Shown here one piece after another: positions 3,117 to 52,779 of a stretch of DNA of 64,000 bases (the first letter of the stretch is position 1; the number at the start of each line of letters is the position of its first letter). The stretch is from Roseofilum capinflatum BLCC-M114 (GTDB lineage Bacteria; Cyanobacteriota; Cyanobacteriia; Cyanobacteriales; Desertifilaceae). The notes beneath the pieces were generated by a model, which saw nothing but the letters and a program-made list of their open reading frames with translations, did no database searches and was not told where the DNA came from. Location: positions 1-64,000 of the forward strand of contig NZ_JAQOSO010000079.1 of the NCBI RefSeq assembly GCF_030068505.1, read 5' to 3'. The translations under genes were made by a program, and so were the position numbers.

Positions 3117-5171
3117 CTATAACATCCACAGGGCATAATGATCGATGATGGTTACTTGAAAGCCTAATGAGGAGAGAATGGCGTTAATTTCCGGTTCCCA
3201 GGGATTCGTAAGCGGAACAATTACGGCTTTGATGGAGAATTGCAGAATGGAATGTTGTAAAACTTGGGGAGCGTTGGGGGGACGATTTACGCCACTAATG
3301 TATTGGGAAAGAATACGGCGCTGATTGGCTTCTGCTTCGGGGAAGAAATTGGTGATTTGTAGATAGCTTTCGGTGACGACAATGGGATATAAGGGAGTTC
3401 GAGGCACGATCATCCATCGAGCTAATTCGTCTCCGGCAACTTCTTCGCCGACGGGGGAAGCGGGGGCTAAGATATAGCTTCCGGGGGGAACTTTAGCCTG
3501 GATGCGGTTAATGAGATCGAGTTTTTGTTGGGGGAGTTTGGGTTGGGGAGGAAAGCGATATTGAATGCGGTTAAAGTCGATTTGGGGAGAGTAGGGGTTG
3601 GGGGAAAGGGCGGTGGAGAGGACAATTAAGGCGGTGGCAGCGAAGGCGTAAAAGGTGAGTTTTATGGTTTTTTGATGTTTAGAAAAGGGATAGGAAAGCA
3701 GGGGGAAACTGAGTAAGATGCCGAGGAGAAGATGGCGGGGAATCACCCACCAGAGGCGGCGAAAGGTGGGGACTCCGGTGAGGTTGACTGCCCAAAATTC
3801 TTGCAGGAAGGGATTCATGAAGATGAGCATAAAGACGAGAATTATGCCGAGGAGAAATCGGCGCATATTGAGATCTCTTAAAACTGCCCAAGTTGCTAGA
3901 GTGGCAACCCAAAAGATGTATCCTCCCATGCCATGATTGAGCTGTAGCACGAAGTCGTTATTAATGATGCTTTCAAAGTTGGGATCGCTCATGTTGGGGG
4001 AGGAGGCTTTGACTTGGGTGATGAAGAGGAGGGCGATCGCCAAGGGATAAGCCGTAGTAGTCAAAACCGATACAGATTTCCAGGTGGTTTTTGCCGTGGG
4101 AGTCCAGTATCCGCAAGTCGTGAGCAATACCGTCAGAGGCGCGGCATAGAGAGCGGTGGAGCTACAGCCAACGGCGGCAATATTGGCAAAGGTGAGAATA
4201 ATCCATTTCCAACCACTGGGTGCAGTTAGATACCGCAAGGTATAGACGATAATCAGGGGAACAAGGATGGCTACAAACAGGGGTTTTCCCTGTTGCAGAC
4301 GAGCGAGGGAGAAGTTTCCTAACCCGGCAGCCGTGGTTAAAATTACGAGTAAGAGGGTGGTAACGGTGGTGATGCTTAACCAGTGACGGGGGGTAATTAC
4401 GCGGAAGAAGAGAGCAGAGGCAAAAATGACCAAGGGAGCGATCGCCAAAGGTTGCCAGAAATTCCGCACCCAAAGATGCGAAATGCCGGTAATGTGGCTG
4501 ATGACTGCCGCGAAAAGTTCCACTGAATGCACCCGATAAACGGGTAAAAGGAGGGGCACATTGGGCACACCATGCATCGTATCTTGCACCATCAGGGGGC
4601 GATCGGGATGGTCTAAAGCGGCGACCATCAGGTTGAGATAAAAGGCATCATCTCCATGGGTGCGGTGAATTATGGCAGTAGCAATAATAGCCAGAGCAAC
4701 CAAGCCGATCAGCCATTCCCAAGATACAATCTTAGGTAATTTTAAGACGAACTTGTGAGCAGGTTTGCGGATGAGTTGCCAGTAGGAAACGCCTAATCCT
4801 AACGTGGCTAAACTCCAAAAGAGGACAAAATTATCCGTTATGCCATAAATGATCACTAAGATGACCGCAATACCCAAAGGAAGAGCCAAATCTTTGCCGA
4901 GCTGTGGTTTGGGGGGTTCTGAACTGTCTTTCTCTAAGGGAAAAGAGTCAGGAAGAACGGCTTGAAAACTGAGGAAAAAACCGGCAATGGCGAAAATGAG
5001 GGCGATCGCCGAAAAATGCAGTAAAGTCTCAAATGTCGCTTGACGCAACACCATCGCATTACACAACAGCGTCCACACTCCAATCAGCCAAACCCAAGAT
5101 AAACAGGACACTTCAACGATTAATCCTGCCCATCCTTGGCGCTCCTTCATCCGGGTAAAAACGGTCTTCAT
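3117..5171 (-). CDS. Large polytopic membrane protein, possible GT-C-type glycosyltransferase
   Basis: This 684-residue protein has about 12 hydrophobic segments filling residues 15-520 and a soluble C-terminal part (about 520-684) with several prolines. After the fourth or fifth segment there is an acidic loop with HGDDAFY, resembling the acidic DxD-like motif in the first long loop of GT-C glycosyltransferases. That is the only functional hint, and I do not recognise a named family. The ATG at 5171 is the natural start; the N-terminal basic patch MKTVFTRMKER precedes the first membrane segment. It stands alone, convergent with the TPR-CHAT gene. Function remains unknown; the glycosyltransferase idea is an inference. 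Confidence 0.75.
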   Translation of the reverse strand: MKTVFTRMKERQGWAGLIVEVSCLSWVWLIGVWTLLCNAMVLRQATFETLLHFSAIALIFAIAGFFLSFQAVLPDSFPLEKDSSEPPKPQLGKDLALPLGIAVILVIIYGITDNFVLFWSLATLGLGVSYWQLIRKPAHKFVLKLPKIVSWEWLIGLVALAIIATAIIHRTHGDDAFYLNLMVAALDHPDRPLMVQDTMHGVPNVPLLLPVYRVHSVELFAAVISHITGISHLWVRNFWQPLAIAPLVIFASALFFRVITPRHWLSITTVTTLLLVILTTAAGLGNFSLARLQQGKPLFVAILVPLIIVYTLRYLTAPSGWKWIILTFANIAAVGCSSTALYAAPLTVLLTTCGYWTPTAKTTWKSVSVLTTTAYPLAIALLFITQVKASSPNMSDPNFESIINNDFVLQLNHGMGGYIFWVATLATWAVLRDLNMRRFLLGIILVFMLIFMNPFLQEFWAVNLTGVPTFRRLWWVIPRHLLLGILLSFPLLSYPFSKHQKTIKLTFYAFAATALIVLSTALSPNPYSPQIDFNRIQYRFPPQPKLPQQKLDLINRIQAKVPPGSYILAPASPVGEEVAGDELARWMIVPRTPLYPIVVTESYLQITNFFPEAEANQRRILSQYISGVNRPPNAPQVLQHSILQFSIKAVIVPLTNPWEPEINAILSSLGFQVTIIDHYALWML

Positions 5172-5287
5172 AACTATCCTGCAACGGCCGATCTGGGCAA
5201 ACTGGATGGATTATACCGCGATCGCCCGCCCCATTAACCTGAGATATGATAATCCTTAAACAGTCAGACCATACAAAACCGTTGCAC

Positions 5288-6142
5288 ATGAAAAAAAACA
5301 ATCGAGCTTTTCCTTTCTTGTCTTCCATGGTGCTTGTTCCCCTCACTGCCTTGATCTTGAATGGGACAGCCACCCATTCTAGAGCGCAAACCGGGGAAAC
5401 CGGGTTAATCTTTGAAGGACAATCCACCCCCAATCAAGTCCCCGTTACAGTGACTGAATATACAGGAGAATGTCCCGGAACAGAAGAGGCTGGTGATATC
5501 AAAGCCTGGTTTGTCTCCACTTTCATTTCCCCTCAACCTCGGCAACGGGTTCGCATTACGAATGTCACCACCGGTATGAATCCCAACCGTCTTCCCTATA
5601 CCGATCGCGCCTATGATAAAGGAAACTCCTCAGAACCCATTCTGATGCAATTTGGCACGGAGCATGGGGATAGTCGGTTTCGGGTACAACGGGGTCTCAA
5701 TGAATTCGAGTATCAGATTCGCCAAGGTCGGGAGACCGTAGAAGAAGGCCGATTTACAGCACTGTTCGATGTGCAAACGCGATCGCAAGTTCGCAACAGT
5801 CAATTAGTGACCCAAGAAGTCTGTGCCAATACTAATATTACTCTGAATCGATGTGGCGATCGGCGTACTCAAAATCAATGGAAATGTCCCGATGGCAAAG
5901 TGATTCGCCAAGAAACTTTTCCCCAGGGGCCGGTTAAAACCATGATTCGCAATGAAACCTCAGAAATGGTCAACTTTGAGATCCGAGGTCGGCAATATTC
6001 CCTCTGGCCAGGTCAGTCCATCGAACTCACTGACAGCAATCCGGGTTTTGTCCGATATTCCAATCGCAGCACCTCCTTACAACCTGGCGTTCTTTACCGC
6101 TTTCAAATATTCGGCAATACTCTCAACCTCGTCGATCGCTAA
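5288..6142 (+). CDS. Secreted hypothetical protein with signal peptide
   Basis: I place the start at the ATG at 5288 rather than an in-frame upstream start at 5246, because it gives a clean signal peptide: MKKNNRAF, a hydrophobic core, then a cleavage site after THSRA. The mature protein of about 260 residues is hydrophilic, has four cysteines (CPGTEEA near the N-terminus, then CANTN, CGDRRT and WKCPDG) that could form disulfides, and ends in a beta-rich part with phrases such as NFEIRGRQYSLWPGQS. I know no function for it. It is divergent from the membrane protein on the other strand, with about 115 bp between their starts. Confidence 0.7.
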   Translation: MKKNNRAFPFLSSMVLVPLTALILNGTATHSRAQTGETGLIFEGQSTPNQVPVTVTEYTGECPGTEEAGDIKAWFVSTFISPQPRQRVRITNVTTGMNPNRLPYTDRAYDKGNSSEPILMQFGTEHGDSRFRVQRGLNEFEYQIRQGRETVEEGRFTALFDVQTRSQVRNSQLVTQEVCANTNITLNRCGDRRTQNQWKCPDGKVIRQETFPQGPVKTMIRNETSEMVNFEIRGRQYSLWPGQSIELTDSNPGFVRYSNRSTSLQPGVLYRFQIFGNTLNLVDR

Positions 6143-39668: not shown

Positions 39669-41026
39669 TTGAGCGAGGATAGGGAAATGGAGCGCATGGA
39701 ATAATCGAGTAGTTCGATGGGATGGAAAATCGAAACTGTCTTACCCTGCTGCTGTAGGTGTTTTTTGATCTGTAAACTACAGCCTGGATTCGCGGAGGCA
39801 ATTATATCAGCTCCAGTATTGAGCAAATTATGCACTTTTTGATCCCCTAAACTTTCAGCTACATCTGGCTGCAACATATTATAAACGCCCGCACTACCAC
39901 AACATAAGGCAGCATCAACCGGTTCTTTTAACTGCACACCAGGAATTTGTTTGAGGAGTTGGCGGGGTTGAACGCTGATTTTTTGTCCATGTAGCAGATG
40001 ACAAGCATCTTGATAAACAATCTTCAACTCTTCTTCAGCTAGGGGAGAAAGTGGAGCCGTTAACCCCACCATAGCTAAAAATTCTTGAATATCTTTCACT
40101 TGACTAACAAACTGTTTCGCCTTGTCTCGATAGTTGGGATCGTCGGCTAAAATATGCCCATATTCTTTCAGGGTATGGCCACATCCTGCCGCGTTAATGA
40201 TTACATAATCGAGGTCTAAATCAGCAAAAGAATCAATCATTTGCCGCGCTAAATCTTGGGCGGGTTTGGTTTGCCCCTGATGTTCGGGCAGTGCCCCACA
40301 ACAGCCTTGACTTTTAGGAATAACGACTTCGCAGCCATTGCCGGTTAAAACGCGAATGGTTGCCGCATTGACGGGATTAAAAAATAGCCGTTGTACGCAG
40401 CCGATAATTACCCCCACTCGATAGCGTTTTTCCCCTTGAGCGGGGATGACATCTGCAAAGGAGTGACGCAGGGAAGCGAGGGAAATCTGGGGTAATATGG
40501 ATTCCATGGCGGCCAATCTAGGGGAGATTTTTTTGAGCAGATTGGTGCGGCGAATCAGCGATTGTAAGCCTGATTTTTGATAGAGATAGAGGGGATAAAG
40601 GAGGGGAACTAAGCGATTGGGGTAGGGAAACAGATTGAAGATTAAGGAGCGAATAATCTGATCGCCAATATTGCGGTCAATATTGCGTTCGACTTGGTGG
40701 CGAGTGGCAGAAATGAGTTTATCATACTGCACGCCGGAAGGACAGGTGCTGACACAGGCTAAACAGCCTAAACAGGTGTCAAAATGTTGGGAGGTAGCGG
40801 GGGCTAAGGGGGCTTCACCTTGGTTAATGGCATCCATGAGGTAAATGCGTCCTCTGGGGGAGTCCATTTCTTGCCCTAAAACGCGATAACTGGGGCAGGT
40901 GGAGAGACAAAAACCGCAATGAACACAGGCGTTAATTAGCTCCGGTTCGGGGGGATTTTGGGGATCGAATCCAGGGGAAAGATGGGGATTTTGAGATAAG
41001 AAGTTGCTGTTTTTGGCGGGGGTCAT
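39665..41026 (-). CDS. glcF: Glycolate dehydrogenase Fe-S subunit
   Basis: The ATG at 41026 gives 453 residues starting MTPAKNSNFLSQNPHL. Two 4Fe-4S motifs are present (Cys34, 37, 40, 44 and Cys85, 88, 91, 95), then two CCG domains (QGCCGALPE and AALCCGSAGVYN) of the heterodisulfide-reductase kind. With GlcD and GlcE it oxidises glycolate from photorespiration, passing electrons to the membrane. An in-frame extension to 41110 would only translate a heptamer repeat array (IPYSLFPIPYSLFP), so it is not used. glcE lies upstream in the same direction; glcD is not in the window. Confidence 0.92.
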   Translation of the reverse strand: MTPAKNSNFLSQNPHLSPGFDPQNPPEPELINACVHCGFCLSTCPSYRVLGQEMDSPRGRIYLMDAINQGEAPLAPATSQHFDTCLGCLACVSTCPSGVQYDKLISATRHQVERNIDRNIGDQIIRSLIFNLFPYPNRLVPLLYPLYLYQKSGLQSLIRRTNLLKKISPRLAAMESILPQISLASLRHSFADVIPAQGEKRYRVGVIIGCVQRLFFNPVNAATIRVLTGNGCEVVIPKSQGCCGALPEHQGQTKPAQDLARQMIDSFADLDLDYVIINAAGCGHTLKEYGHILADDPNYRDKAKQFVSQVKDIQEFLAMVGLTAPLSPLAEEELKIVYQDACHLLHGQKISVQPRQLLKQIPGVQLKEPVDAALCCGSAGVYNMLQPDVAESLGDQKVHNLLNTGADIIASANPGCSLQIKKHLQQQGKTVSIFHPIELLDYSMRSISLSSLN

Positions 41027-41033
41027 GAAAAGA

Positions 41034-41089
41034 GGGAATAGGGAATAGGGAATAGGGAATAGGGAATAGGGAATAGGGAATGGGGAATG
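41034..41089. repeat. Eight tandem GGGAATA heptamers (STRR) between glcE and glcF
   Basis: Six exact GGGAATA units at 41034-41075 are followed by two GGGAATG units to 41089. The array ends 8 bp before the glcF start codon (reading on the minus strand), so it occupies the ribosome-binding zone of glcF: on that strand the units read TATTCCC and provide no Shine-Dalgarno sequence. Copy-number change here would alter the leader of glcF. Confidence 0.95.
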
Positions 41090-41206
41090 GGCCGTTCCTA
41101 CCCTACCCATTGACTGGATATGGTTTTAATTATGCAAAAAAATGTTACTTTTGTGCAAGGTGAAAAACATGGGTTCTGCTAATTGATACTATAGAAATCC
41201 AGTGGA

Positions 41207-42475
41207 TCAAATGAAGCGATCGCAACTGAGTAAGGAATCAGGATCGAATTGATGCTTGAGGGTTTGCATGATTTTTAGGGCATTTCCGGTATAGCCCCAT
41301 ATGTCTATGGCTTTTTTGAGGGATGGAGGCGCTTCTAAGATGGAGAGAAAGCCGCCATGGGAGGTGAGATAAGAGCGCAGTTCTAGGAGTTGGGTTGAGC
41401 GGATTTGATTGCATCGGAGTATACCTAATCCGGTTCGAGCGTGGATCGCACATTCACTTTGCACTTGAACAAGCTGTTGAATTTTGGACAACAGGTTAAC
41501 GGCTTGGATGGGACGAATGCCGAGTTTGCAAACCACTTTTTGGGGGTGGGGTTCCCAGAGCTGATGTTGCCAGGTTTGCCAGTGTTGAGTTTCGTCTTGC
41601 TGCTCGTAAATTTGGGCGCTTAATTCTAAGGTTTGACCGAGTTCGAGTACCCGTTGGGTTTGTTCTTGTACGCTTAGGGGTATGCTTTGGAACCGAGCAG
41701 CAAGCAATATTTCATCGTTTTGGGGTCTGAGATCGAGGGCGGTGGGGGTTAGACTGGAACTCAGTAGGGTTTGGGTGGCTTGGGCGATCGCCTCTGGATT
41801 GCCTGAAAGTATGATGGTGGCGGAACTTTGGGGAATGGGATACAGGCGAAAGGTGGCTTGGGAGATGATGCCTAAACTGCCATAGCTGCCGGTGAAGAGT
41901 TTCATGAGGTCATAACCAGCCACATTTTTAACCACTCTGCCCCCAGCTTTGGCTATTTCGCCATCACTGCGGATAAAGGAGATCCCAATCAGGCGATCGC
42001 GCACACCGCCATACCGATGTCGCCAACTCCCAGTATCTGCCGTAGCAATGATACCGCCGATGGTGGCTTGGTTGGGGTAGGCGGGATCGAAGGCTAAAAA
42101 CTGGTTATGGGTCGCTAAAAATTGATTCACCTGTGCTAAGGTGATCCCCGCTTCTACGGTAAGGGTGAGATCTCCGGCTGCATGTTCTATAACTTGGTTA
42201 ATGCGTTGGGTACTGATGAGGAGATCGACGGGTTTACCGATGCCACCCCAATGAATTTTACTGCCTGCTCCCCAGGGTAAGACACGCCATTGGTTGGCTT
42301 TGGAGAGTTTCATGATTTCGCTCAGTTGCTCTTGAGTTTCAGGATACACCACGGAGGGAGGGGGCGATCCAGGTTGCCAAGCTTGTTGAAAACGCTGTTG
42401 TAGGGAGGCTTCGAGCTGCTCAAAGGGCAACAGGGGGCAGATATCGGGGAGGGAGGTAGGGGCGATCGCAGTCAC
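41207..42475 (-). CDS. glcE: Glycolate dehydrogenase FAD-binding subunit
   Basis: The 422-residue protein has a PCMH-type FAD domain at about 35-215: VVYPETQEQLSEIMKLSKAN, WGAGSKIHWGG, DLTLTVEAGITLAQVNQFLA and PNQATIGGIIAT. GGRVVKNVAGYDLMKLFTGS (about 178-197) is the typical GlcE/GlcD block. The C-terminal half is divergent, as usual for GlcE. It acts with glcF, which lies 180 bp downstream on the same strand. Start ATG at 42475. Confidence 0.9.
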   Translation of the reverse strand: MTAIAPTSLPDICPLLPFEQLEASLQQRFQQAWQPGSPPPSVVYPETQEQLSEIMKLSKANQWRVLPWGAGSKIHWGGIGKPVDLLISTQRINQVIEHAAGDLTLTVEAGITLAQVNQFLATHNQFLAFDPAYPNQATIGGIIATADTGSWRHRYGGVRDRLIGISFIRSDGEIAKAGGRVVKNVAGYDLMKLFTGSYGSLGIISQATFRLYPIPQSSATIILSGNPEAIAQATQTLLSSSLTPTALDLRPQNDEILLAARFQSIPLSVQEQTQRVLELGQTLELSAQIYEQQDETQHWQTWQHQLWEPHPQKVVCKLGIRPIQAVNLLSKIQQLVQVQSECAIHARTGLGILRCNQIRSTQLLELRSYLTSHGGFLSILEAPPSLKKAIDIWGYTGNALKIMQTLKHQFDPDSLLSCDRFI

Positions 42476-42540
42476 AGTGAGAATGGATAAGGTTAGAGTC
42501 TATTGTCTATGATACTGTGCGATCGGCGATCGGTCGTCGA

Positions 42541-43287
42541 TTATGGGTCTAGGCGATCGGGATCGATACCTAATTCCCTCAGTTTTTGAGCGAGTTTTTC
42601 CGCTTTCTGTTGAGCCGATAATGCCCGTTGTTCCGTCGATAATAGCTGTTGTTCCGTTGATAATAGCTGTTGTTGAGCTGAAATAATTTGCTCTTCCGGT
42701 GTTAAATAGCGCTCTCCCTGCTCATCATACCAATAGAGCCATTCTCTCTCTATTCCTTGATACGTTCCCTCCGCTCTACCGATGCCTAAATTTAACTCGG
42801 ATAACCACACCGGTTCCCCGGACAATAATTCATATGCACCAGCTTTTAGTTCATAGACTTCCAGCTTCTGTTTCCTTTTCCGCAAAGGATTATAGATCGC
42901 ATAATATAAAATTCCCAGTTGGGCATATTCTTCTTTTTTCTGAGTATATTCTTTCCGTCGTTTATGGGAAACCACTTCTAACACCAGGGTGGGCAATTTC
43001 TGCTCTTCCCACAGCACATAGGAGAAACGTAAATCCGAGTCAATAATTCTTGGTACACCCACACTCAAAAAGCCATCGGGGACAATAGCAGGTTGATTCG
43101 GATCGTAATAGATTCCCATGTCTACTCCAAAAAACCAATCCATCCGTTCTGCCCAAATTAAAGCCAGCATCGCCTTGAGCAAACTGGGAATTAAATCTTG
43201 TAGTTCGTTATCCACGGGAGTATCATCCGAATCGGGTAAATCTTCAGCAGAGGGTAAGCAAGCTCTGGGATTATAGTTGAGTAACAT
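42541..43287 (-). CDS. Uma2-family (DUF820) putative nuclease with heptad-repeat tail
   Basis: The 248-residue protein has a PD-(D/E)XK-like core with GFLSVGVPRIID..., LPTLVLEVVSHKRRKEYTQK (about 115-134) and KKEEYAQLGILYYAIYNPL (about 138-156), the pattern of Uma2 proteins that expand in cyanobacteria. Its cellular role is unknown. The tail, about 205-235, is a run of seven-residue repeats (QQLLSTEQQLLSTEQRALSA), encoded by near-identical 21-bp units, likely a short coiled coil. Start ATG at 43287. It may belong to mobile or conflict-related islands, and the neighbouring region supports that. Confidence 0.85.
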   Translation of the reverse strand: MLLNYNPRACLPSAEDLPDSDDTPVDNELQDLIPSLLKAMLALIWAERMDWFFGVDMGIYYDPNQPAIVPDGFLSVGVPRIIDSDLRFSYVLWEEQKLPTLVLEVVSHKRRKEYTQKKEEYAQLGILYYAIYNPLRKRKQKLEVYELKAGAYELLSGEPVWLSELNLGIGRAEGTYQGIEREWLYWYDEQGERYLTPEEQIISAQQQLLSTEQQLLSTEQRALSAQQKAEKLAQKLRELGIDPDRLDP

Positions 43288-43321
43288 AGGCTTGTTGTGT
43301 ATCTATCCATTACAGTATAGT

Positions 43322-43459
43322 TTAAGCAAGACCATACTTGGTATAAGGACGTTTGTATGGGGGATGTAAACCGAGAATAATATCTGAAGGGGGAACGCCT
43401 TTATCTACCAACTCTTGCACCTCTTGGACAATTTGACGATACTTTTCTAGTTTTTCCAT
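43322..43459 (-). CDS. Internally deleted XisI-like mini-protein (45 residues)
   Basis: The 45-residue frame is preceded by AGAGGAGGTTGTCGA, a very strong ribosome site. Its first 13 residues (MEKLEKYRQIVQE) match the N-terminus of XisI, and the rest (LVDKGVPPSDIILGLHPPYK, then RPYTKYGLA) matches the XisI C-terminus. The middle of about 55-60 residues is missing, and the frame is kept across the join. XisI normally has about 111 residues and works with XisH. No xisH is nearby. The gene may be a decayed remnant or a trimmed functional peptide. Confidence 0.75.
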   Translation of the reverse strand: MEKLEKYRQIVQEVQELVDKGVPPSDIILGLHPPYKRPYTKYGLA

Positions 43460-43521
43460 TCGACAACCTCCTCTAAATTGGGGTCATATGCGATCGGGCT
43501 GAGACGGTTTCCTTACTCATA

Positions 43522-44883
43522 TTAGCCTACAAATTTGAGATATTCTTGAAAAATAGGATTTAGGGTAAATGACGGTCGATCGCCCTGAACTGAATTTAAT
43601 AGATAGCGCCTACTCAAAGACTGCAAACCATTCACAACTTCTAGAGAAGATAAGTTTAAAGCATTTCTTAAATCATCCCTGGAAAGAGGTGCTGTTGTCC
43701 GACTCATCTCTAAACTGATGTTTTGTTCTACTGGAGATAGCCTCATCCATAAGGTGTTCCAAAGTAATTTTATCTCTTCTGTAAATATCAAACTTTCCTC
43801 AGCAATAAACTCATTAACATGACCTGAAAAGACTTCTTTAATCAAACTAGAGATGGAGTGCAAATATAAAGGATGTCCGTGATAAAGATTACTGAGGTCT
43901 AGTAATTTTTCTTCCGGGGGTAAGCCCTGATATTGCAGAAATTCTACAGCATCAGTATTTAACCCTCCCAGTTCTAAAGATTGAATGGGGTATAACTGAG
44001 CATCCAAAGAAATCATTTCTGAAAATTTTTCTTGACTAATCAGGATTAAACAGCTTTGATGTGAAACTTCTGCCATCATTTGGAAAAATGTTCTATACTC
44101 TGTATATTCGGGCTTATACTGTCCCGCAAATTGTCCAGGAATAAATAGATTTTGTACATCATCAAGCACTAGCAAACATCGCTGATTCGATAATAGTTCA
44201 AAAACTTGGTTAATTTGTTCATCAAGCCCCAGGCTCTTTTCTATTTCTGGGTTAAAAGTTCCTAAAACATCATGTAGTAGATGATTGAGAACTTTGGAGA
44301 ATTTCAAGCTTTTCCAGATTGCAGCATCCCAAGAATCTAAATGTAAGTCAATAAATTGCCTAACCAGCGTTGTTTTACCAATACCACTTAATCCCGACAC
44401 TGCCATCAGACGAGTGGGTTGATTGAAAATAGACTCAGAAAGTTTTTCTAGTTCCTCGCTGCGTCCTTCAAAGTAAGTAATCTCAGGTGCGAGTGCTAAA
44501 TCTATAAGAGAGTTCAGACTTGCTTGACTGTTTGTAGTAGTTGCTTGGTGTTTCTCTGATTTCTCCGGACATAAATTAAAGTGACTATGGATTCCAACAC
44601 CAACTACTTGAGACGAATTAATTGGAATATTCCATCTTTCAATTGTCGCCCGAAAATTAGATTTATTCACATCTTCTTCTAACCGTTCTGACAAAATTCG
44701 CCATAGCTTATACCCCACATCTCTCACCCGACTCTCACTGCGATGGCATTCTTGAGCAATTTCTTCATAACTTTCCCCTTCCCATACCCCTTTGACTACA
44801 GCCTTTTGAATGTCATCTAAGTGTTTTCCTGTTTCAGCAAAGACGAGGCGATCGGCAAATTGTAACACTTCTGTAACAACCAT
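43522..44883 (-). CDS. STAND NTPase with vMAP-type N-terminal domain, no sensor repeats
   Basis: The protein has 453 residues. Residues 1-80 form the helical/HTH-like domain seen at the front of vWA-MoxR-associated proteins (ESYEEIAQECHRSESRVRDV). After a linker, an NB-ARC ATPase spans about 135-450, with P-loop GLSGIGKTT (164-172) and Walker B LLVLDD (Asp241/242). It ends within the winged-helix part (LSRRYLLNSVQGDRPSFTLN), where relatives continue with WD40 or TPR sensor repeats; these are lacking. Such proteins are often in conflict or regulatory systems. It is divergent from the RiPP cassette with 188 bp between. Confidence 0.85.
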   Translation of the reverse strand: MVVTEVLQFADRLVFAETGKHLDDIQKAVVKGVWEGESYEEIAQECHRSESRVRDVGYKLWRILSERLEEDVNKSNFRATIERWNIPINSSQVVGVGIHSHFNLCPEKSEKHQATTTNSQASLNSLIDLALAPEITYFEGRSEELEKLSESIFNQPTRLMAVSGLSGIGKTTLVRQFIDLHLDSWDAAIWKSLKFSKVLNHLLHDVLGTFNPEIEKSLGLDEQINQVFELLSNQRCLLVLDDVQNLFIPGQFAGQYKPEYTEYRTFFQMMAEVSHQSCLILISQEKFSEMISLDAQLYPIQSLELGGLNTDAVEFLQYQGLPPEEKLLDLSNLYHGHPLYLHSISSLIKEVFSGHVNEFIAEESLIFTEEIKLLWNTLWMRLSPVEQNISLEMSRTTAPLSRDDLRNALNLSSLEVVNGLQSLSRRYLLNSVQGDRPSFTLNPIFQEYLKFVG

Positions 44884-45071
44884 AGAGTGAAGATAGAGTA
44901 AGGGTTTCCGCCATTATAACTCAGTATCATACAGGCTCTCACGATATTTCACGATTGTCATTGAAATATTTATTGATAAAACTCAGGCTTGAATAGGATA
45001 TTTGAGTATTTAGTTATTTTCAAATTAAGGGGTATTATTTTTAATAATCTCTATGAAATAGGGTATGCACC

Positions 45072-45179
45072 ATGACTGAAAACAAACAGGTCAAAATCCA
45101 GGTTAAACCTGAACAAATCAAAACGACTAAGCCTGATTCTTTATTTAAGAACCGTGCTACTTGCCAACGTCGTAGCTAG
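45072..45179 (+). CDS. Candidate RiPP precursor peptide (35 residues)
   Basis: A short frame 92 bp upstream of the radical SAM gene, in the same direction, encodes a 35-residue hydrophilic peptide: a Lys/Gln/Thr-rich leader (MTENKQVKIQVKPEQIKTTK) and a C-terminal part ending PDSLFKNRATCQRRS. One Cys at position 31 sits next to Arg, Gln and Arg residues. Small peptide genes directly before SPASM-type maturases are normally their substrates, and Cys and Arg are plausible modification sites. I recognise no known precursor family. The ribosome site is weak (AGGGTATGCACC). No exporter or protease gene adjoins it. Confidence 0.65.
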   Translation: MTENKQVKIQVKPEQIKTTKPDSLFKNRATCQRRS

Positions 45180-45271
45180 ATAGCTATATTTTTTGCCTAT
45201 CATGGCTTCTGGATTCAAAAAAGTTATGGTGGGCAAATATTTCTTGTTAACCTAGATTAAGGATAAATAAT

Positions 45272-46651
45272 ATGGAAACTACAGCTTACCAGCAGTCTCG
45301 CTACTTTCATGCTGTCGATGGTGGTAATGGAATTTTTTTGATTTATCATGCTCTCTTTAATCAGCCACGAGAAGTAGAAGAATCTGTTGTTGATTTTATC
45401 CATCTTTTTCAAGAACCTAAAACACTTGATGAAATTGCTGATTATTGTGAAGGTGATATAGAAGAAGTCGTTAAAACTTTAGCCGACTTGCATTTATTAG
45501 AATATGAGAGCAACGACGAGCTTGAGCTACTAGAAGCGTTGCATGAAGATTTTTTAACTGAATTAAAACAAGGAAATAAACTTCAGCGACTTGAATTAGC
45601 CATTAGTAATGCTTGCAATTTTGGTTGTAAACATTGTATGCACTTTTTGAATAATGATTTTGAAACTAGAAATTCTCCAGAATTAAACATGAGTGCTGAA
45701 ACTGCGAAAGAAAGCATTGACAAATTTATTAAAAAAGTGCGATTGAGTGAAAACTCGTTGGTCAGAATTCATTTTGGCAATGGTGAACCTCTGCTCAACT
45801 GGAAAACTTTGCTGTTTGTTTTGGAATATTGTGAATCCATACCAGATATTCAATTCTTTTATGCAATTAATACTAATTTAAGCTTATTAAACTGCCAAAA
45901 AGCAGAAACACTCAAAAAATATAAAGTTAAGATCTCTACCTCTCTTGATGGACTCCGTGAAACCAACGATTTAATCAGGATTGATGCCAAGGGACAGGGG
46001 ACTTTTGATAAGATTTTAAGCAAAATTCGTTTACTGGAATCCATTGAATATCCAATTGATGGGTTTTCTGTAACGGTGACAGATACAAATTTTGCCTTGA
46101 TTGATGAACAGGTCATAGACTTGGGAAAATCTTTGGGTGTAAAAGATGTTTCAATGGATTTTGATCTGGTTCGTTCAACAGCAATTCCGATTGAAGATTG
46201 TGTCAACAAGATTATAGACTTACGGCGTTATGCTCATCAACAAGGATTGAATTTTTATGGCACTTGGGAAACTCCTTACAGAATCTTAATGTCCCACTCT
46301 TGGCTGTCTGAACCTCATGCATTTTGCCCATCAATGGAAGGTAAAACAATTGAATTTAATGTAGATGGAACTCTAAAAACTTGTGGGCATACCAATACAG
46401 TTGTAGGGAATTCACTAGAGTTTGAGAAATGTTTTGAACAAGGCAGTTTGTATATGCAACTTATTCAAAGTCGTTTACCCGGCAATAATCAATTCTGCAA
46501 GGGTTGTGAAATTGAAGGTTGCTGTGCGGGTCAATGTCATGTCACATTAGAATCTGCAAAAAAAGATTCTGATTTGGTTCAGCGTACTTGTGAACTAATG
46601 AAAAGGACAACTAAAAGACTTATTGTTGAGTATTTACAAGGAAGAGAATAA
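45272..46651 (+). CDS. Radical SAM/SPASM peptide maturase
   Basis: The protein has 459 residues. Residues 1-90 form a winged-helix/PqqD-like part suited to leader binding (FIHLFQEPKTLDEIADYCEG). The radical SAM domain carries CNFGCKHC (Cys115, 119, 122) and the GGEP-like motif FGNGEPLL near 171. The C-terminal SPASM part has cysteines in CPSMEGK, LKTCGH, FCKGCEIEGCCAGQC and a last TCEL, enough for two auxiliary 4Fe-4S clusters. Such enzymes install thioether or C-C crosslinks or epimerise residues in peptides. AAGGATAA precedes the ATG at 45272. Base composition is more AT-rich than the neighbours, suggesting transfer. Confidence 0.9.
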   Translation: METTAYQQSRYFHAVDGGNGIFLIYHALFNQPREVEESVVDFIHLFQEPKTLDEIADYCEGDIEEVVKTLADLHLLEYESNDELELLEALHEDFLTELKQGNKLQRLELAISNACNFGCKHCMHFLNNDFETRNSPELNMSAETAKESIDKFIKKVRLSENSLVRIHFGNGEPLLNWKTLLFVLEYCESIPDIQFFYAINTNLSLLNCQKAETLKKYKVKISTSLDGLRETNDLIRIDAKGQGTFDKILSKIRLLESIEYPIDGFSVTVTDTNFALIDEQVIDLGKSLGVKDVSMDFDLVRSTAIPIEDCVNKIIDLRRYAHQQGLNFYGTWETPYRILMSHSWLSEPHAFCPSMEGKTIEFNVDGTLKTCGHTNTVVGNSLEFEKCFEQGSLYMQLIQSRLPGNNQFCKGCEIEGCCAGQCHVTLESAKKDSDLVQRTCELMKRTTKRLIVEYLQGRE

Positions 46652-46714
46652 TTTAATTATGGTTGATATTTGTTGAAATATTACTTTTTTTATTCAGTCA
46701 GAAACAATGAGTTT

Positions 46715-46942
46715 ATGTCAGAAATATCAAAACCTAAATCTAGGTTTGTTTTGCCCCATAAAGGACAGACCCTTCAAGAGCAGATAGATAAAAATCAACC
46801 GGCTCTTGCCCTCTTAAAACAGTGGATAGAAGAAGAACCAACCCCAGAAGAAGTGCATGACCGAGAACAATATTGGCAAACGGTAAAGGAAATCATCGAT
46901 CGCGAGCGTCCATCAGGCTTTAAGTTATATCATCAAGAATGA
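46715..46942 (+). CDS. Small antitoxin-like protein without adjacent toxin
   Basis: The 75-residue protein starts at the ATG at 46715 (MSEISKPKSRFVLPHKGQTL); an open frame reaches back to 46670. The pattern ALALLKQWIEEEPTPEE ... WQTVKEIIDRERPSGFKLYH is common in short cyanobacterial proteins paired with PIN toxins, and resembles the gene at 55840-56091 (ETIDNHRPVGQKLF). Here no toxin follows: the next gene is a GTPase 84 bp on. It may be an orphan antitoxin, or third in the RiPP transcript, whose maturase ends 63 bp upstream. Confidence 0.7.
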   Translation: MSEISKPKSRFVLPHKGQTLQEQIDKNQPALALLKQWIEEEPTPEEVHDREQYWQTVKEIIDRERPSGFKLYHQE

Positions 46943-47026
46943 TCGTCACGGGGTTACCCGATCGCCCCCCAATGCCCCCCAATCGAGTTAAGCTAGAGAT
47001 CTGGTTGGGTTTAGTGGAGAATATCG

Positions 47027-48430
47027 ATGGCAACACTCATACGTCGTCCTCTGTTAGTTGGTGGCTTAGGATTAGGGGCTATCCTGTGGTTATGGGCAAA
47101 TGTCCAAAGTTCCGTGAGTGAATGGGGAGAATGGGTTACCCTGGGGGCGATCGCCTGGGGTGGGATTTGGTGGTGGCGGCAAAAGTCTGCCTCTGCTTCC
47201 GTGGAAACCCTGCCTCAACGGGTAAACCGGGAAACTTTGGAGCAGACGTTTACTCAGGTTGAAGGGGCGATCTCCGAATTAGCCACAGAAGACGTTGATG
47301 TTTCCAGTTGGCAAAACCGCTTGCATGAACTCAGAGCCGAAATTAACCGCAAAACCCTCAATATTGCCATTACTGGCGGTAGAAATGTGGGCAAAACTAG
47401 CCTGTTGAATCTCCTCTCTCAGGATTGGCAAATTGTAGAAACCCCTGCCCTGTTTACGCCGAATCCGAGCGCCGAAACTCAAAGCCAGATTGAAGCACAA
47501 CAGAGCAACAGTGATGTGATTCTGTTGGTTATTTCGGGAGATTTAACCGATTCTGAATATCAAACCCTAGAACGGCTCAAAAATAATCATCACCATGTTA
47601 TTTTAGTCTTCAATAAACAAGATCAATACTTACCCCAAGAACTTCCCAGCATTCTGCAACAAATTAACAGCCGCATCACCGGCACACTAGAGCAAGAGGA
47701 TTTAGTCGTAACTGCCGCTATCCCTCAAGCGATCAAAGTCCGCAAACACCAACCGGATGGCACAGTAAACGAATGGATGGAACAGCCAGCGCCCCAAATT
47801 GAAGCCCTGACAACCCGTTTGGCGCAAGTGGCTACCGCTTCTAGTGCGCCCATTTTAGGGACGATCCAGCGCCAAGCAGAAGCCTTACAGGGCGAAATTC
47901 AAGCCGTCTGGAACCAGAAACGCCGCGATCGCGCTTTGCCGGCGATCGAGCAATACCAATGGATCGCCGCTACCACTGCCTTCGCTAACCCCATTCCCAG
48001 CCTCGATCTCTTGACAACGGGCGCAATTACCGGTCAACTGATTTTAGACTTAGCCAAAATCTATCAACCCAACCAATCCTTCACCCTCCAACAAGGTCAA
48101 AAAGTCGCCGGAACCCTAGGTGAACTAATCGTCAAACTCGGCTTAGTCGAACTCTCCACCCAAACCATTACTCATGTTCTTAAAACCAACGCCATCACCT
48201 ATACTGCGGGTGGACTGGTACAAGGCATCAGCGCTGCCTATTTAACGCGCATTGCCGGATTAAGTTTAGTTGAATATTTCCAAACCCAAGACTTTAATCC
48301 AGAACAGGGATTAAACCTAGATAAATTGACCTCCATTATCAAACAAGTCTTTCAACAGAACCAGCGCACCGCATTTGTGCAATCTTTTGTCACGTCAGCA
48401 GTGCAGAGGTTAAAAACCGTTCAAGTTTAA
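47027..48430 (+). CDS. Membrane-associated GTP-binding protein with DUF697-like C-terminus
   Basis: The 467-residue protein has two short N-terminal hydrophobic segments (LLVGGLGLGAILWLWA and EWVTLGAIAWGGIWWW), a G domain with P-loop GGRNVGKT (117-124), a G3 region without a clear DxxG, and G4 as NKQD near 203. The C-terminal 150 residues (FANPIPSLDLLTTGAITGQL, IYQPNQSFTLQQGQKVAGTL) match DUF697 of cyanobacterial small GTPases. It probably acts at a membrane; the role is unknown. Start ATG at 47027. Confidence 0.82.
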   Translation: MATLIRRPLLVGGLGLGAILWLWANVQSSVSEWGEWVTLGAIAWGGIWWWRQKSASASVETLPQRVNRETLEQTFTQVEGAISELATEDVDVSSWQNRLHELRAEINRKTLNIAITGGRNVGKTSLLNLLSQDWQIVETPALFTPNPSAETQSQIEAQQSNSDVILLVISGDLTDSEYQTLERLKNNHHHVILVFNKQDQYLPQELPSILQQINSRITGTLEQEDLVVTAAIPQAIKVRKHQPDGTVNEWMEQPAPQIEALTTRLAQVATASSAPILGTIQRQAEALQGEIQAVWNQKRRDRALPAIEQYQWIAATTAFANPIPSLDLLTTGAITGQLILDLAKIYQPNQSFTLQQGQKVAGTLGELIVKLGLVELSTQTITHVLKTNAITYTAGGLVQGISAAYLTRIAGLSLVEYFQTQDFNPEQGLNLDKLTSIIKQVFQQNQRTAFVQSFVTSAVQRLKTVQV

Positions 48431-48437
48431 GACCATC

Positions 48438-48467
48438 TGTAGGGGCGAACGGCCGTTCGCCCCTACA
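48438..48467. repeat. Perfect 30-bp palindrome, copy 2
   Basis: The core is identical to the copy at 7600-7629 (GGGCGAACGGCCGTTCGCCC), here flanked by TGTAG and CTACA. The changes in both flanks are compensatory, so symmetry is preserved. It begins 8 bp after the GTPase stop codon and lies between convergent genes. Confidence 0.92.
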
Positions 48468-48549
48468 TACCAAATTGTAGTTCAATGAAACCCCTACAAG
48501 ACAAGATAAGGGGGAGGCTTGAGACCCATTTCTCCGGTAGTAACTCGAT

Positions 48550-49122
48550 CTAATGATGAATAAGTTCTAGACGGTCGAGGGGCCAAAAGCGAAATGCAGC
48601 CCGACCGATAATATTGTTCTGGGGTAAGAACTTCCAAATATGGGAATCATTACTATCGTTGCGGTTATCTCCCATGACAAATAATTGTCCTTGGGGGACT
48701 TGTTCGGGCCCCCAGTGGTATTCTGGCGGTTCAGCAATATAATCTTCTTGAAGGGGTTGTTGGTTCAGATAGACTTTACCCCCAGAAACTTCCACGGTTT
48801 GACCGGGTTGACCAATGACTCGTTTAATAAAGGCTTGATCTTTGCGGTATCCTTGCGCTTGCAGTTGAGGGGGAGGTTCAAAGACAACGATATCACCGGT
48901 TTCGGGGGGATGGAAATGATAGGAGACCTTTTCAATGACAAGGCGATCGCCCACTGCTAAGGTGGGAAACATGGAATCAGACGGAATAAACCGGGGTTCA
49001 GCGATCGCCGTCCGCACTACAAGAGCAATCATTACAGCGATCGCGATAATGATTACATTTTCCCGATGTTGATGCCATAGATTTCCCCAACCCGAACGTG
49101 AGGATTTTGAAGGGTCTGTCAT
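48550..49122 (-). CDS. lepB: Signal peptidase I
   Basis: The 190-residue protein has one N-terminal membrane helix (VIIIAIAVMIALVVRTAI, about 23-40). The catalytic Ser50 is in PSDSMFPTL and the general base Lys100 in FIKRVIG; GDNRNDSNDSH (about 150-160) is the third signature. It cleaves signal peptides of exported and thylakoid-lumen proteins. The length is that of cyanobacterial SPases. It is a single gene with about 230 bp of otherwise empty DNA upstream. Confidence 0.96.
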   Translation of the reverse strand: MTDPSKSSRSGWGNLWHQHRENVIIIAIAVMIALVVRTAIAEPRFIPSDSMFPTLAVGDRLVIEKVSYHFHPPETGDIVVFEPPPQLQAQGYRKDQAFIKRVIGQPGQTVEVSGGKVYLNQQPLQEDYIAEPPEYHWGPEQVPQGQLFVMGDNRNDSNDSHIWKFLPQNNIIGRAAFRFWPLDRLELIHH

Positions 49123-49355
49123 TTCAACTCAATAGGTCACAGACTGTTCATTGTACCCAACCGTGGGTTATTCTCGCAATTGCTTCCCTGCGATCGACAG
49201 GGCAAACCCATACTCGAAATGAAAAAATCAGCGAATGCCATATTGAACCCGGAGGAACTTTCGAGCTGCTTCGGAAACTCGGATTGAAAAATAGCCACAC
49301 CGAGCAACTCTAACCTTGTTAAGGAAATCACCGGTTGCACTCGCGTATAACCTTT

Positions 49356-50267
49356 TTATAATCCAGCAACTTGCTGTAATAAGTTCATTAATCCTAAGTG
49401 TTTTAACTGTTCCAGTTGTTGAGCATCTCGGACTAATAAGGCTCCGGCAAACCCTAGGGAATTGACGGAAATAGAGTGATAAGCGTCCTGAGCGCGGGGA
49501 ATGACCATCATCCATCGGCGGGTAATGAGTAAATTATAGGCTCCGGTTTGTTGAATGCCTGGGTCTCCTTCTCCTAAGCGTCCGACGTGCCGCAGGAGCT
49601 GGTGGTAGTGGTTCAGGGTCACCTGAGCGGCGTTTTCTGGACTGTTAACTATTTCAGGGTCAAAAAAGATAATCCCATGGGGAAAGGGCAGTTGATGGCT
49701 CTGATAGGGGCTGCTCTGGGATGATTTGGGGTCGAATACCGTCTCGATCGGGATGGCTATGCCTTGGGGAATGAGGGGGAGGGGAACGAGTTGTAAGTGT
49801 TTGTGGGGTTGACTTGCACCTGCATCGATGCCACCGTTGTAGAATCCAAGACCATCAATTTCCGCAAGGGCAAACCATAAGGCTTGAAAGTCGGCGAGGG
49901 TGAGCCAGTTTTCTTGGGATTCAAAGTCACGGGTGACGATGAGGATATGGCGCTCTACGACGTTGTATTTGTTGAGCAGACAGTGGTGAGTGGGGGAGAT
50001 GTCGCTGACGAAGAGGTTGCGATCGCAGGGCAGAAATGGGTTAACCGGTTTGCTAGAGTCTTTAGTGCCCTGTTGTTTGCGTTTTTGGGCTTCTTTACGG
50101 GCGAGGTTAGAGACAATTCTCACCAAAAAGGGAATTCCGCTATCTTCGATGATCTCATAGTCGGTGAGAATGGGATGGAGGGCCCCACACTTTAAGGCAT
50201 ACTGGGTTTGTTGGCTAATGCGTTCAATGAGTGTGCCAGGGGGGAATAAGGTCGAGTTTGCTTGCAT
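49356..50267 (-). CDS. ATP adenylyltransferase (Ap4A phosphorylase II family)
   Basis: The 303-residue protein contains the HIT-like catalytic block SQPHKHLQLVPLPL (about 152-165), in which the middle His attacks the phosphate. KYNVVERHILIVTRDFESQ (about 102-120) and the C-terminal SYNLL..RRWMMVIPRAQD block are typical of fungal and cyanobacterial Apa-type enzymes. The enzyme splits diadenosine tetraphosphate with phosphate to ATP and ADP. Start ATG at 50267. It is convergent with nothing; lepB follows on the same strand 230 bp on. Confidence 0.88.
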   Translation of the reverse strand: MQANSTLFPPGTLIERISQQTQYALKCGALHPILTDYEIIEDSGIPFLVRIVSNLARKEAQKRKQQGTKDSSKPVNPFLPCDRNLFVSDISPTHHCLLNKYNVVERHILIVTRDFESQENWLTLADFQALWFALAEIDGLGFYNGGIDAGASQPHKHLQLVPLPLIPQGIAIPIETVFDPKSSQSSPYQSHQLPFPHGIIFFDPEIVNSPENAAQVTLNHYHQLLRHVGRLGEGDPGIQQTGAYNLLITRRWMMVIPRAQDAYHSISVNSLGFAGALLVRDAQQLEQLKHLGLMNLLQQVAGL

Positions 50268-50321
50268 CCGTGGTTGGGGCCCTTAGTTTCTTCCGCTATG
50301 ATACGGCTTTAGGGGTCGGAT

Positions 50322-50600
50322 TTAAACAGAAAGGGGTTCGGGTTCGCTCATGCTGAGGCGATCGCAGACTATCTCATTAACTAACTTGACGCTTTCTGGC
50401 TCATCCTCTTGATAAATTTCTAAATGGGCTGATGGAGGGGCTTCAAATAATAGATATTCTTGGGGGAATACCACCCGTTCAAAATACCAATTGGAAATAT
50501 TAGAAATTCGGGCAATTTGAATCGATTCAGTGGTATTTTTATAGCTACAGACTAAACGCTGAGAATCGGTTGTAGACAAGGAATCAAGAATTTGGCTCAT
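50322..50600 (-). CDS. DUF1830 family protein
   Basis: The 92-residue protein is one DUF1830 domain: LVCSYKNTTESIQIARISNI, then NWYFERVVFPQEYLLFEAPP. The family is essentially confined to cyanobacteria and has no known function. The tail (about 70-92) is longer than the domain. It is just upstream of the Ap4A phosphorylase gene (54 bp) in the same direction, and they may be cotranscribed. Confidence 0.85.
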   Translation of the reverse strand: MSQILDSLSTTDSQRLVCSYKNTTESIQIARISNISNWYFERVVFPQEYLLFEAPPSAHLEIYQEDEPESVKLVNEIVCDRLSMSEPEPLSV

Positions 50601-51919
<1,319 letters not shown>

Positions 51920-51990
51920 TTTAGATTGAGGGGGCGATCGCCAACTCAGAAGAGGCGATCGCTCTTTCTCAAAAGCTTGTTTAAAATAAC

Positions 51991-52779
51991 TTACCCTCGA
52001 TAGCGCACGGGAATCTTAGTCTCTTGTTCAATTTCTTCAGCAAAGGCTTGCAATACTTCTAGCTCCACACATTTTAAGCGTCTCACCTCATAAGACCGTT
52101 CATCATAATGATTTCCCCGGCCATCTAATTGCCGTTTGACGGGTTTCGGACGGGAGGGGGTATTGAGTTGAATTTCCACCGGCGATAAGGCTTTCATCAT
52201 CTCGATATACTGATGGCGCGTTTGAGTATCCCATGGAGTCAAAATCATGGTTTGTACGCCAATTTCTCCAGAATACTGTTGGCGAAAATCGAGCATTCCT
52301 TGCCACATTTGCTCTAAATCCAAGCCGTCTACGGGACGATTGACGCAGTTGAGGGGTTTGGCGGTAACAGCATCTAGTTTAAGCGAAAGGCGATCGCAAT
52401 ATCTCAAATCCGCTTGCACCTGCGGATCATCCAACAGCGTCCCATTCGTTAGCACCAGCGTCGGTCTTTGGGTCATGTCCTTGATGCCTTGCAAAATTTC
52501 CCCTAAATTTAAGGCTAATGTCGGTTCGCCACTCCCACTGAGCGTTACCACATCCACATCCCAAGGAGCAAACCCCTGTAAATCCCCCAAAATCGTTTCT
52601 GTCGGCACATAAATCGCCCGCTTTTCGGTCACAATCTCAATCTCTCCCAACTGACAATAGACGCAATTAAATGAACAAACCGACGTTTGCCCAATCGGAT
52701 CTATGCCCAGCGATCGCCCATAACGCCAAGAAACCACCGGCCCATACACACTCTTAAATTCCGTCGTTGTCGTTACCAT
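51991..52779 (-). CDS. Radical SAM protein of the COG0731 / UPF0026 type
   Basis: The protein has about 262 residues from the ATG at 52779 (MVTTTTEFKSVYGPVVSWRY); an ATG at 52794 is also possible. The cluster motif is CSFNCVYC (CxxxCxxC), followed by LGEIEIVTEKRAIYVP and LSGSGEPTL. It resembles the family that includes archaeal wyosine synthesis enzymes, which is not a known pathway in bacteria, so the substrate is unknown. It lies divergent from the repeat block 52860-53008. Confidence 0.8.
   Translation of the reverse strand: MVTTTTEFKSVYGPVVSWRYGRSLGIDPIGQTSVCSFNCVYCQLGEIEIVTEKRAIYVPTETILGDLQGFAPWDVDVVTLSGSGEPTLALNLGEILQGIKDMTQRPTLVLTNGTLLDDPQVQADLRYCDRLSLKLDAVTAKPLNCVNRPVDGLDLEQMWQGMLDFRQQYSGEIGVQTMILTPWDTQTRHQYIEMMKALSPVEIQLNTPSRPKPVKRQLDGRGNHYDERSYEVRRLKCVELEVLQAFAEEIEQETKIPVRYRG

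Follow-up and report, generated by a model that had tools for sequence, protein, structure and literature searches.

A probable radical SAM/SPASM RiPP cassette in the cyanobacterium Roseofilum capinflatum with a divergent HTH-STAND gene as its candidate regulator

Small modified peptides have been described beside ATPases of the signal transduction ATPases with numerous domains (STAND) class. In the extract of Kaur et al. 2020 (PMC7159879) drawn on here, actinobacterial FxSxx peptides are accompanied by radical S-adenosylmethionine (SAM)/SPASM enzymes, a zincin peptidase and AP-ATPases, and the peptide is proposed to be a toxin or a signal, so that modified peptides next to STAND ATPases are, as a general notion, already in print. 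A 2024 survey of cyanobacterial sigma factors (PMC11119718) lists NB-ARC among the accessory domains of sigma70 homologues, naming no partner genes, ribosomally synthesized and post-translationally modified peptides (RiPPs) or operators in the part used. We have analysed 64,000 nucleotides of Roseofilum capinflatum BLCC-M114 (assembly GCF_030068505.1, contig NZ_JAQOSO010000079.1, positions 1 to 64,000; hereafter the window), in which a gene for a 35-residue peptide is followed by one for a radical SAM/SPASM enzyme and faced by a divergent gene for a helix-turn-helix (HTH) STAND protein (Table 1). Our preferred reading, to which we give a probability of about 0.6, is that the three form a RiPP cassette under the control of the STAND protein. 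The precursor-maturase pair with its co-inheritance, the linkage to STAND genes, the repeats and the stem-loop are seen in the sequences themselves; the chemistry, the DNA binding, the direction of regulation, the signal and the part played by the product belong to the interpretation. The locus would share with the FxSxx-COOH/FxsB systems, as they appear in that extract (PMC7159879), the joint presence of a peptide modified at its C-terminus, a radical SAM/SPASM enzyme and a STAND ATPase; unlike them it has a 453-residue HTH-STAND protein instead of an AP-ATPase with tetratricopeptide repeats (TPRs), and no FxSxx end. No zincin peptidase, vWA or MoxR gene was seen by eye in the list of open reading frames (ORFs) between 40000 and 52000. 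The pairing of HTH and NB-ARC in the window resembles the sigma70/NB-ARC proteins of the survey. A small divergent HTH-STAND gene beside such maturases, repeat operators and a RATCQRRS family were not found in the open-licence PMC literature searched, and the portion of PMC8939145 consulted makes no mention of NB-ARC.

The short frame and the 459-residue enzyme, separated by 92 bp on the same (plus) strand, lie where an initial annotation of the window had placed them, and its interpretation of the two as precursor and maturase is well supported at the sequence level. Upstream of the maturase genes of homologous loci, the 35-residue frame is retained in all three of the other loci with the region intact (L002 in genome G057, L003 in G192 and L004, a Dolichospermum contig). 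It has gone from the fourth other homologue, G272, which has a transposase gene before that of the maturase. The check that the initial annotation had set for its own proposal was thereby made, and the proposal withstood it. Among the four homologues with the frame, the window's included, leader codons show up to 19 non-synonymous differences and a three-codon length difference, and the eight codons of the C-terminal RATCQRRS have changed only synonymously. The N-terminal part, though variable, includes E-[QE]-I-K-T as a conserved stretch. All four homologues also agree in Asp22 and Phe25, which lie outside the core, and have Asn or Ser at position 27, just before it. Searched for as an exact pattern, RATCQRRS turns up in 3 of 388 genomes of the order (G000, which is the window's own, G057 and G192), in every case together with both maturase and precursor. 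Because the frame is conserved, its last eight codons have admitted only synonymous change and motif and enzyme co-occur, we regard the short frame as a real gene whose C-terminus is kept by purifying selection. The peptide has a single cysteine, Cys31, and no Asp or Glu among its last 12 residues. It had also been proposed that the precursor fits no known type and, within the tests made, this holds: neither NCBIfam nor Pfam gives a match for the peptide at E up to 1; the enzyme falls far under the cut-offs of the best 25 of the 55 NCBIfam models that it matches at E up to 1.

The maturase matches Pfam Radical_SAM (PF04055) at 46.6 bits (cut-off 29.5). Its CxxxCxxC motif (C115-x3-C119-x2-C122) is invariant in six aligned sequences down to 23-26% identity, as are C352, C371, C409, C412, C418, C422 and C440 in the same six; by analogy, these seven C-terminal cysteines would be the ligands of SPASM auxiliary clusters. 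The best match in the PDB is 8vpo_A (residues 9-451 aligned, E 6.7e-36), which is among the structures used for checking models of the RiPP recognition element (RRE) in the part of PMC12710340 used here, and the N-terminal ~100 residues of the maturase may be such an element. PapB (NF047865) is the top NCBIfam model, covering residues 104-425 at 91.6 bits against a cut-off of 340, and membership of that family was rejected. The same was concluded for FibroRumin (TIGR04136; 76.2 bits, cut-off 400), for SCIFF (TIGR03974; 75.7 bits, cut-off 425), whose precursor has six cysteines against one here, and for FxsB of the FxSxx-COOH systems (TIGR04269; 61.5 bits, cut-off 370), whose FxSxx C-terminus is lacking here, the precursor ending in CQRRS. 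CcpM, YhhB and XyeB score 91.2, 71.7 and 49.7 bits, respectively. Membership of a known defence system was rejected too: the viperin-like match of the maturase in the defence database is weak (40.5 bits) and was taken as a shared-domain signal.

We infer, in agreement with the initial annotation, that the Cys/Arg/Gln-rich end of the peptide is cross-linked. The 35-residue peptide would consist of a variable N-terminal leader and a core with RATCQRRS at its heart; the maturase would bind the leader, probably via its RRE-like N-terminus, and then cross-link the core. A thioether from Cys31 is slightly favoured, since the nearest families by score (PapB, CcpM, RumMC and SCIFF) are thioether-forming or Cys-targeting by name, and it also fits the position of the cysteine within the invariant core. 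PapB joins Cys to Asp or Glu, according to the part of PMC9413430 used here. The window's precursor differs in having neither residue after Cys31 or within the eight residues before it; the invariant Asp22, nine residues before, is one possible acceptor. The cross-link could instead be a cyclophane between the ring of Phe25 and Asn/Ser27 (F-x-[N/S]), as made by enzymes of the FxsB/XyeB/GrrM type, leaving Cys31 free. That Phe25 and Asn or Ser at position 27 are present in all four homologues, and that FxsB/YhhB-like maturases serve other STAND-linked cassettes (see below), speaks for this chemistry, which we hold to be a serious but lesser candidate: PapB, CcpM and SCIFF all outscore FxsB and XyeB, with YhhB near SCIFF, and the strictly invariant block is the one around the cysteine.

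The cassette as initially annotated contained precursor and maturase but overlooked the conserved divergent HTH-STAND gene, which is its most telling part. The encoded protein has an HTH (residues ~1-85), an NB-ARC/STAND ATPase domain (~136-300) with the P-loop GLSGIGKTT, and a helical C-terminus. It matches Pfam NB-ARC (PF00931) at 35.9 bits (cut-off 23.5) and AAA_16 at 37.2 (32.6), with a sub-threshold Sigma70_r4_2 match, and is related to plant and animal immune receptors; among NCBIfam models, the FxSxx-system TPR protein scores best, at 30 bits against a cut-off of 300. Residues 1-80 are the best-folded stretch of its AlphaFold model (predicted local distance difference test, pLDDT, 64-85 by block), and this HTH fold matches NarL/LuxR- and sigma-r4-type domains with Z up to 7.5, such values being common among small folds. 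Foldseek places the NRC3 resistosome (E 9.1e-4) and Dark (E 3.2e-2) at the top of the matches to the model, which carry little weight given its poor quality. As a known defence system the protein was rejected: weak matches to PDC-S27 (20.9 bits) and Avs1b (16.7 bits) were taken as a shared-domain signal. A STAND gene is present at all five homologous loci. Those at L002, L003 and L004 encode proteins 78%, 76% and 52% identical to the window's and are all divergent; in G272 only a C-terminal remnant is left, beyond the transposase gene.

Table 1. Coordinates of the precursor, maturase and STAND genes and of the elements between them (window positions).
Feature	Position	Strand	Basis
HTH + NB-ARC (STAND) ATPase gene, 453 aa	43522-44883	-	divergent from precursor gene, 188 bp between
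-10 box TATAAT of STAND gene	44913-44918	-	promoter-like match 10/12, start of first hexamer at 44942
Proposed operator, direct repeat CACGATATTT / CACGATTGTC, period 10 bp	44940-44959	.	lag-10 score 9.5, 0/200 shuffles as high
Precursor gene, 35 aa, MTENKQVKIQVKPEQIKTTKPDSLFKNRATCQRRS	45072-45179	+	frame kept at 4/5 homologous loci; codon pattern
Invariant C-terminal core RATCQRRS	45153-45176	+	synonymous changes only, 4 homologues
Stem-loop, 17-pair stem	45192-45237	+	fold -22.8 kcal/mol, z -4.1
Radical SAM/SPASM maturase gene, 459 aa	45272-46651	+	Pfam Radical_SAM, 8vpo_A alignment, invariant cysteines

More distant maturases, gathered by maturase similarity or by NCBIfam model alone, were searched for neighbouring STAND genes with a profile of 21 HTH-STAND proteins, two of which come from maturase-linked loci. 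A STAND gene lies within 1.5 kb at 20 of 24 maturase loci. Six pairs of these loci coincide, which leaves 18 distinct places (the window among them), and 15 of the 18 have a STAND gene, one as a remnant; the places are partly dependent, several being orthologues within one genus. Those lacking a STAND gene are L042 and L048, where the maturases stand at contig starts, and L051. GrrM/OscB maturases served as a control: 120 genomes of the order yielded 22 such loci, in 18 genomes, five of the loci having flanks shortened by contig ends, and at none of the 22 is there a STAND gene within 1.5 kb. The window's own genome also has a GrrM/OscB maturase (C102:69396-70484, L083), with no STAND gene within 1.5 kb.

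These counts bear on whether the peptide and enzyme are an ordinary RiPP pair, such as one for a bacteriocin or signal that is exported, and stand by chance beside a common cyanobacterial STAND gene. HTH-STAND genes are indeed numerous (11 matches in the window's genome) and have varied partners, the cassette is rare and of patchy occurrence (4/388 genomes), and 1.9 kb past the maturase gene there is an ORF that by eye resembles signal peptidase I (48550-49122, minus strand). This last ORF qualifies the initial statement that neither exporter nor peptidase is present, which holds by eye for exporters and RiPP-type peptidases in the ORF list of 40000-52000; the product may act inside the cell, as first proposed, or may leave it. 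The absence of exporter and RiPP-type peptidase and the STAND gene at all five homologous loci and at 15/18 maturase places against 0/22 for GrrM/OscB make a chance neighbourhood improbable.

Four types of STAND-linked precursor were distinguished by eye: RATCQRRS; Cys-rich peptides with PRQSLTW or PRQSLIW ends, with FibroRumin-like maturases; peptides with AWxDFSSH near the end, with FxsB/YhhB-like maturases; and peptides with RAWG or KGAW ends, with FxsB. The FibroRumin-like maturases of G301 and G284 reach 385.7 and 398.1 bits (cut-off 400) and share the divergent HTH-STAND layout with the window, from which the FibroRumin family (TIGR04136/TIGR04135) is otherwise set apart by the low score of the window's enzyme and the single cysteine of its precursor. 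Two of the Cys-rich precursors (L064 7019-7195 and L065 7194-7421) give 16.9 bits to TIGR04135 in one case and no match in the other, and their maturases fall just under the FibroRumin cut-off. At loci L069 (7055-7572), L062 (6779-7285) and L059 (5409-5737), nearly identical precursors that carry AWSDFSSH or AWLDFSSH close to the end stand in tandem beside FxsB/YhhB-like maturases, and further genes that recur between loci follow. In G006 (L027), an HTH-STAND gene faces an 81-residue ORF (3021-3263) with a TTLTYRTTGSIPLVKPYEDSEQDD stretch, followed at 3465-4298 by a relative of ATP-grasp ribosomal peptide maturases (TIGR04187; 176.2 bits, cut-off 350); with its score below the cut-off, this is a possible graspetide-type cassette of the same divergent layout. 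Among other HTH-STAND genes, 23 of 24 diverge from the nearest upstream ORF of at least 80 residues, at 146-1161 bp, a count that includes a few near-duplicates and has no control; on reading the sequences, the partners vary, with GTPases, an AAA protein, a GIY-YIG-like protein, small membrane or secreted proteins and the 81-residue ORF of G006 among them. When 35 STAND proteins are arranged in a tree, those linked to maturases form two deep groups, interspersed with others; the Dolichospermum STAND does not group with the window's, and the STANDs of the RATCQRRS and FibroRumin-like types may each have a single origin. That one type of switch accompanies several kinds of peptide-modifying gene set suggests that these have a control system in common.

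Upstream of the -10 box of many HTH-STAND genes we found direct repeats with a 10-bp period, the unit of which differs between paralogs. In the window the repeat lies by the -35 position of the STAND promoter, 112 bp before the precursor start. CACGAT-N4-CACGAT has one exact match in the window and three when two mismatches are allowed, which is the chance level. The repeat is kept in L002 and L003 and takes an altered form in L004; the -10 box is retained at all four loci where the region is complete. Promoter-like sites as a whole show no clear excess in the region (11 against 8.0 in shuffles, sd 2.4). Scoring was done on 23 non-redundant STAND upstreams, which remain of 32 after removal of eight near-duplicates and L059. 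At lag 10 their mean is 9.02, compared with 3.76 in shuffles (z 17.8), and at lag 20 it is 6.02 (z 8.0); all other lags from 4 to 21 have z of 4.3 or less. For 89 non-STAND upstreams the lag-10 mean is 3.51, with 0 of 2000 resamples as high as the STAND set; a score of at least 8 is reached by 14 of the 23 STAND upstreams and 4% of the non-STAND controls, and by five of the six maturase-linked members of the set. At lag 7, the non-STAND upstreams exceed the STAND set (4.49 vs 2.78). An operator word shared across STAND genes was rejected, as CACGAT-type words occur upstream of only 4 of 32, all of RATCQRRS type; it is the period that is shared.

On our reading, the STAND protein would recognise the 10-bp-phased repeat that it has in the intergenic region and turn the cassette on in response to a signal, acting as a ligand-gated regulator of the cassette and of itself. 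MalT-type STAND activators likewise combine a STAND ATPase and an HTH with direct-repeat sites and ligand-gated oligomerization; by comparison, the window's protein has its HTH at the N-terminus, no large sensor repeat domain was seen in it, and its arrays have a 10-bp period. Since the same type of regulator is coupled to several peptide-modifying cassettes, the modified peptide would most likely be an effector or signal of a STAND-gated response. A different division of labour would make the STAND protein an executioner or receptor and the modified peptide its activating or inhibiting ligand, in a conflict system like those of nucleotide-binding leucine-rich repeat (NLR) proteins, with the divergent layout serving to balance the two. 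The NB-ARC architecture would suit such a role, as would the variable divergent partners, some of which (GTPases, secreted or membrane proteins) resemble effector modules by eye, and the toxin-or-signal proposal for FxSxx peptides found with radical SAM/SPASM enzymes and AP-ATPases in the extract of Kaur et al. 2020 (PMC7159879). We nevertheless judge it unlikely: the STAND protein has an HTH and no recognisable effector domain in its Pfam matches, and the promoters of its close relatives carry 10-bp repeats, which would be expected if these proteins regulate by binding DNA.

Several observations weigh against regulation of the cassette by its STAND protein, or against the evidence for it. The 10-bp period was first spotted by eye in the very upstreams that were later scored, maturase-linked L059 was left out of the scoring as it has no -10-like box, and L065, also maturase-linked, reaches only 6.5 at lag 10. 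Among hold-out upstreams, 3 of 15 score at least 8 at lag 10 (L028, L037 and L115): two of five from small STANDs, L037 being identical upstream to the already scored L036, and one of ten from plasmid NB-ARC genes (L115). The plasmid hold-out consists of 10 of the 15 records found, nine annotated as long NB-ARC or WD40 proteins and one unannotated. As hold-outs seldom score high, the repeats appear to belong to close STAND relatives and to be weak or absent in distant ones. In G015 (L051), a 737-residue FxsB frame has no STAND gene within the 14 kb read. The other three RATCQRRS-type STANDs have a nearer relative than the Dolichospermum protein, and STAND and cassette partners may therefore have been exchanged. 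In the STAND protein of L002 (G057; 4248-5612, minus strand) the P-loop reads GLSGIDKTT, with Asp replacing the glycine before Lys, which may impair nucleotide binding in that genome. The AlphaFold models of both proteins are poor, with mean pLDDT values of 43.9 for the STAND protein, of which the HTH part alone was used, and 44.6 for the maturase. Finally, G076, of the same genus, aligns through window positions 43472-43620 and resumes at 46888, the cassette being absent. It retains the last 99 bp of the STAND gene; loss of the cassette in G076 is the simplest account. A separate observation on the plasmid genes is that L112, upstream of position 2501 and belonging to a Calothrix plasmid NB-ARC gene annotated as a WD-40 protein, has an 11-bp repeat with a lag-11 score of 18.0.

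Between the precursor and maturase genes there is a stem-loop, which folds strongly in all four sequences, the window and three homologues (z -4.4, -4.2 and -5.7 in the latter). One of the 17 consensus pairs has changed on both sides and yet been kept, and four are kept despite one-sided changes; six are broken, each in one sequence, and the arms mostly still pair through G-U/A-U/G-C swaps. Rfam finds no family at gathering score over 44500-47100, and an intrinsic terminator after the precursor gene was considered but none was called, for which reason we call the structure attenuator-like. It is probably an attenuator or a stabiliser of the mRNA 3' end that sets the precursor above the enzyme, and would thus keep the peptide in excess over its maturase.

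Close relatives of the maturase are found in four of the 388 genomes of the order at E up to 1e-30 (the window's own, G057 at 96% identity, G192 at 85% and G272 at 69%) and in one of 386 genomes of a phylum sample, again the window's own, at E up to 1e-25. The Dolichospermum relative (67% identity) is split by a transposase gene. Transposase genes break two of the five RATCQRRS-type loci (L004 7068-8210, L007 3025-4062), and the cassette therefore appears to decay readily. A scan of viral contigs gave no close relatives, and carriage by phages or plasmids was rejected: 102 plasmid and 60 phage records have matches, and those listed (30 and 10) do not reach 60% identity. The interval first proposed for the cassette ran to 46942 and so took in an ORF at 46670-46942, which is present in G034 and G076, both without the maturase, and hence does not belong to it. 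Other genomes of this genus have the 90-residue ORF close to the same flank, in differing order and without the maturase.

Taken further, and more tentatively than the cassette itself, small cyanobacterial HTH-STANDs might be plug-in switches with their own 10-bp-phased operators, set divergently before exchangeable effector cassettes, to which one graspetide-type locus and no fewer than four types of radical SAM RiPP would belong. The modified peptides would then serve as effectors or second signals when the cell responds, in an NLR-like manner, to stress or phage, and RATCQRRS would found a new RiPP family of Arg/Gln/Cys chemistry. The paralog-specific repeat arrays make the pairing of regulator and operator directly testable. 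If our reading is correct, the 35-residue substrate and its single enzyme would provide a small two-gene system in which to test for a cross-link, perhaps of a new kind, close to a C-terminus rich in Arg, the divergent HTH-STAND gene would be a genomic handle for finding RiPP cassettes without knowing their modification chemistry, and RiPPs would be tied to STAND/NLR-type sensing in cyanobacteria.

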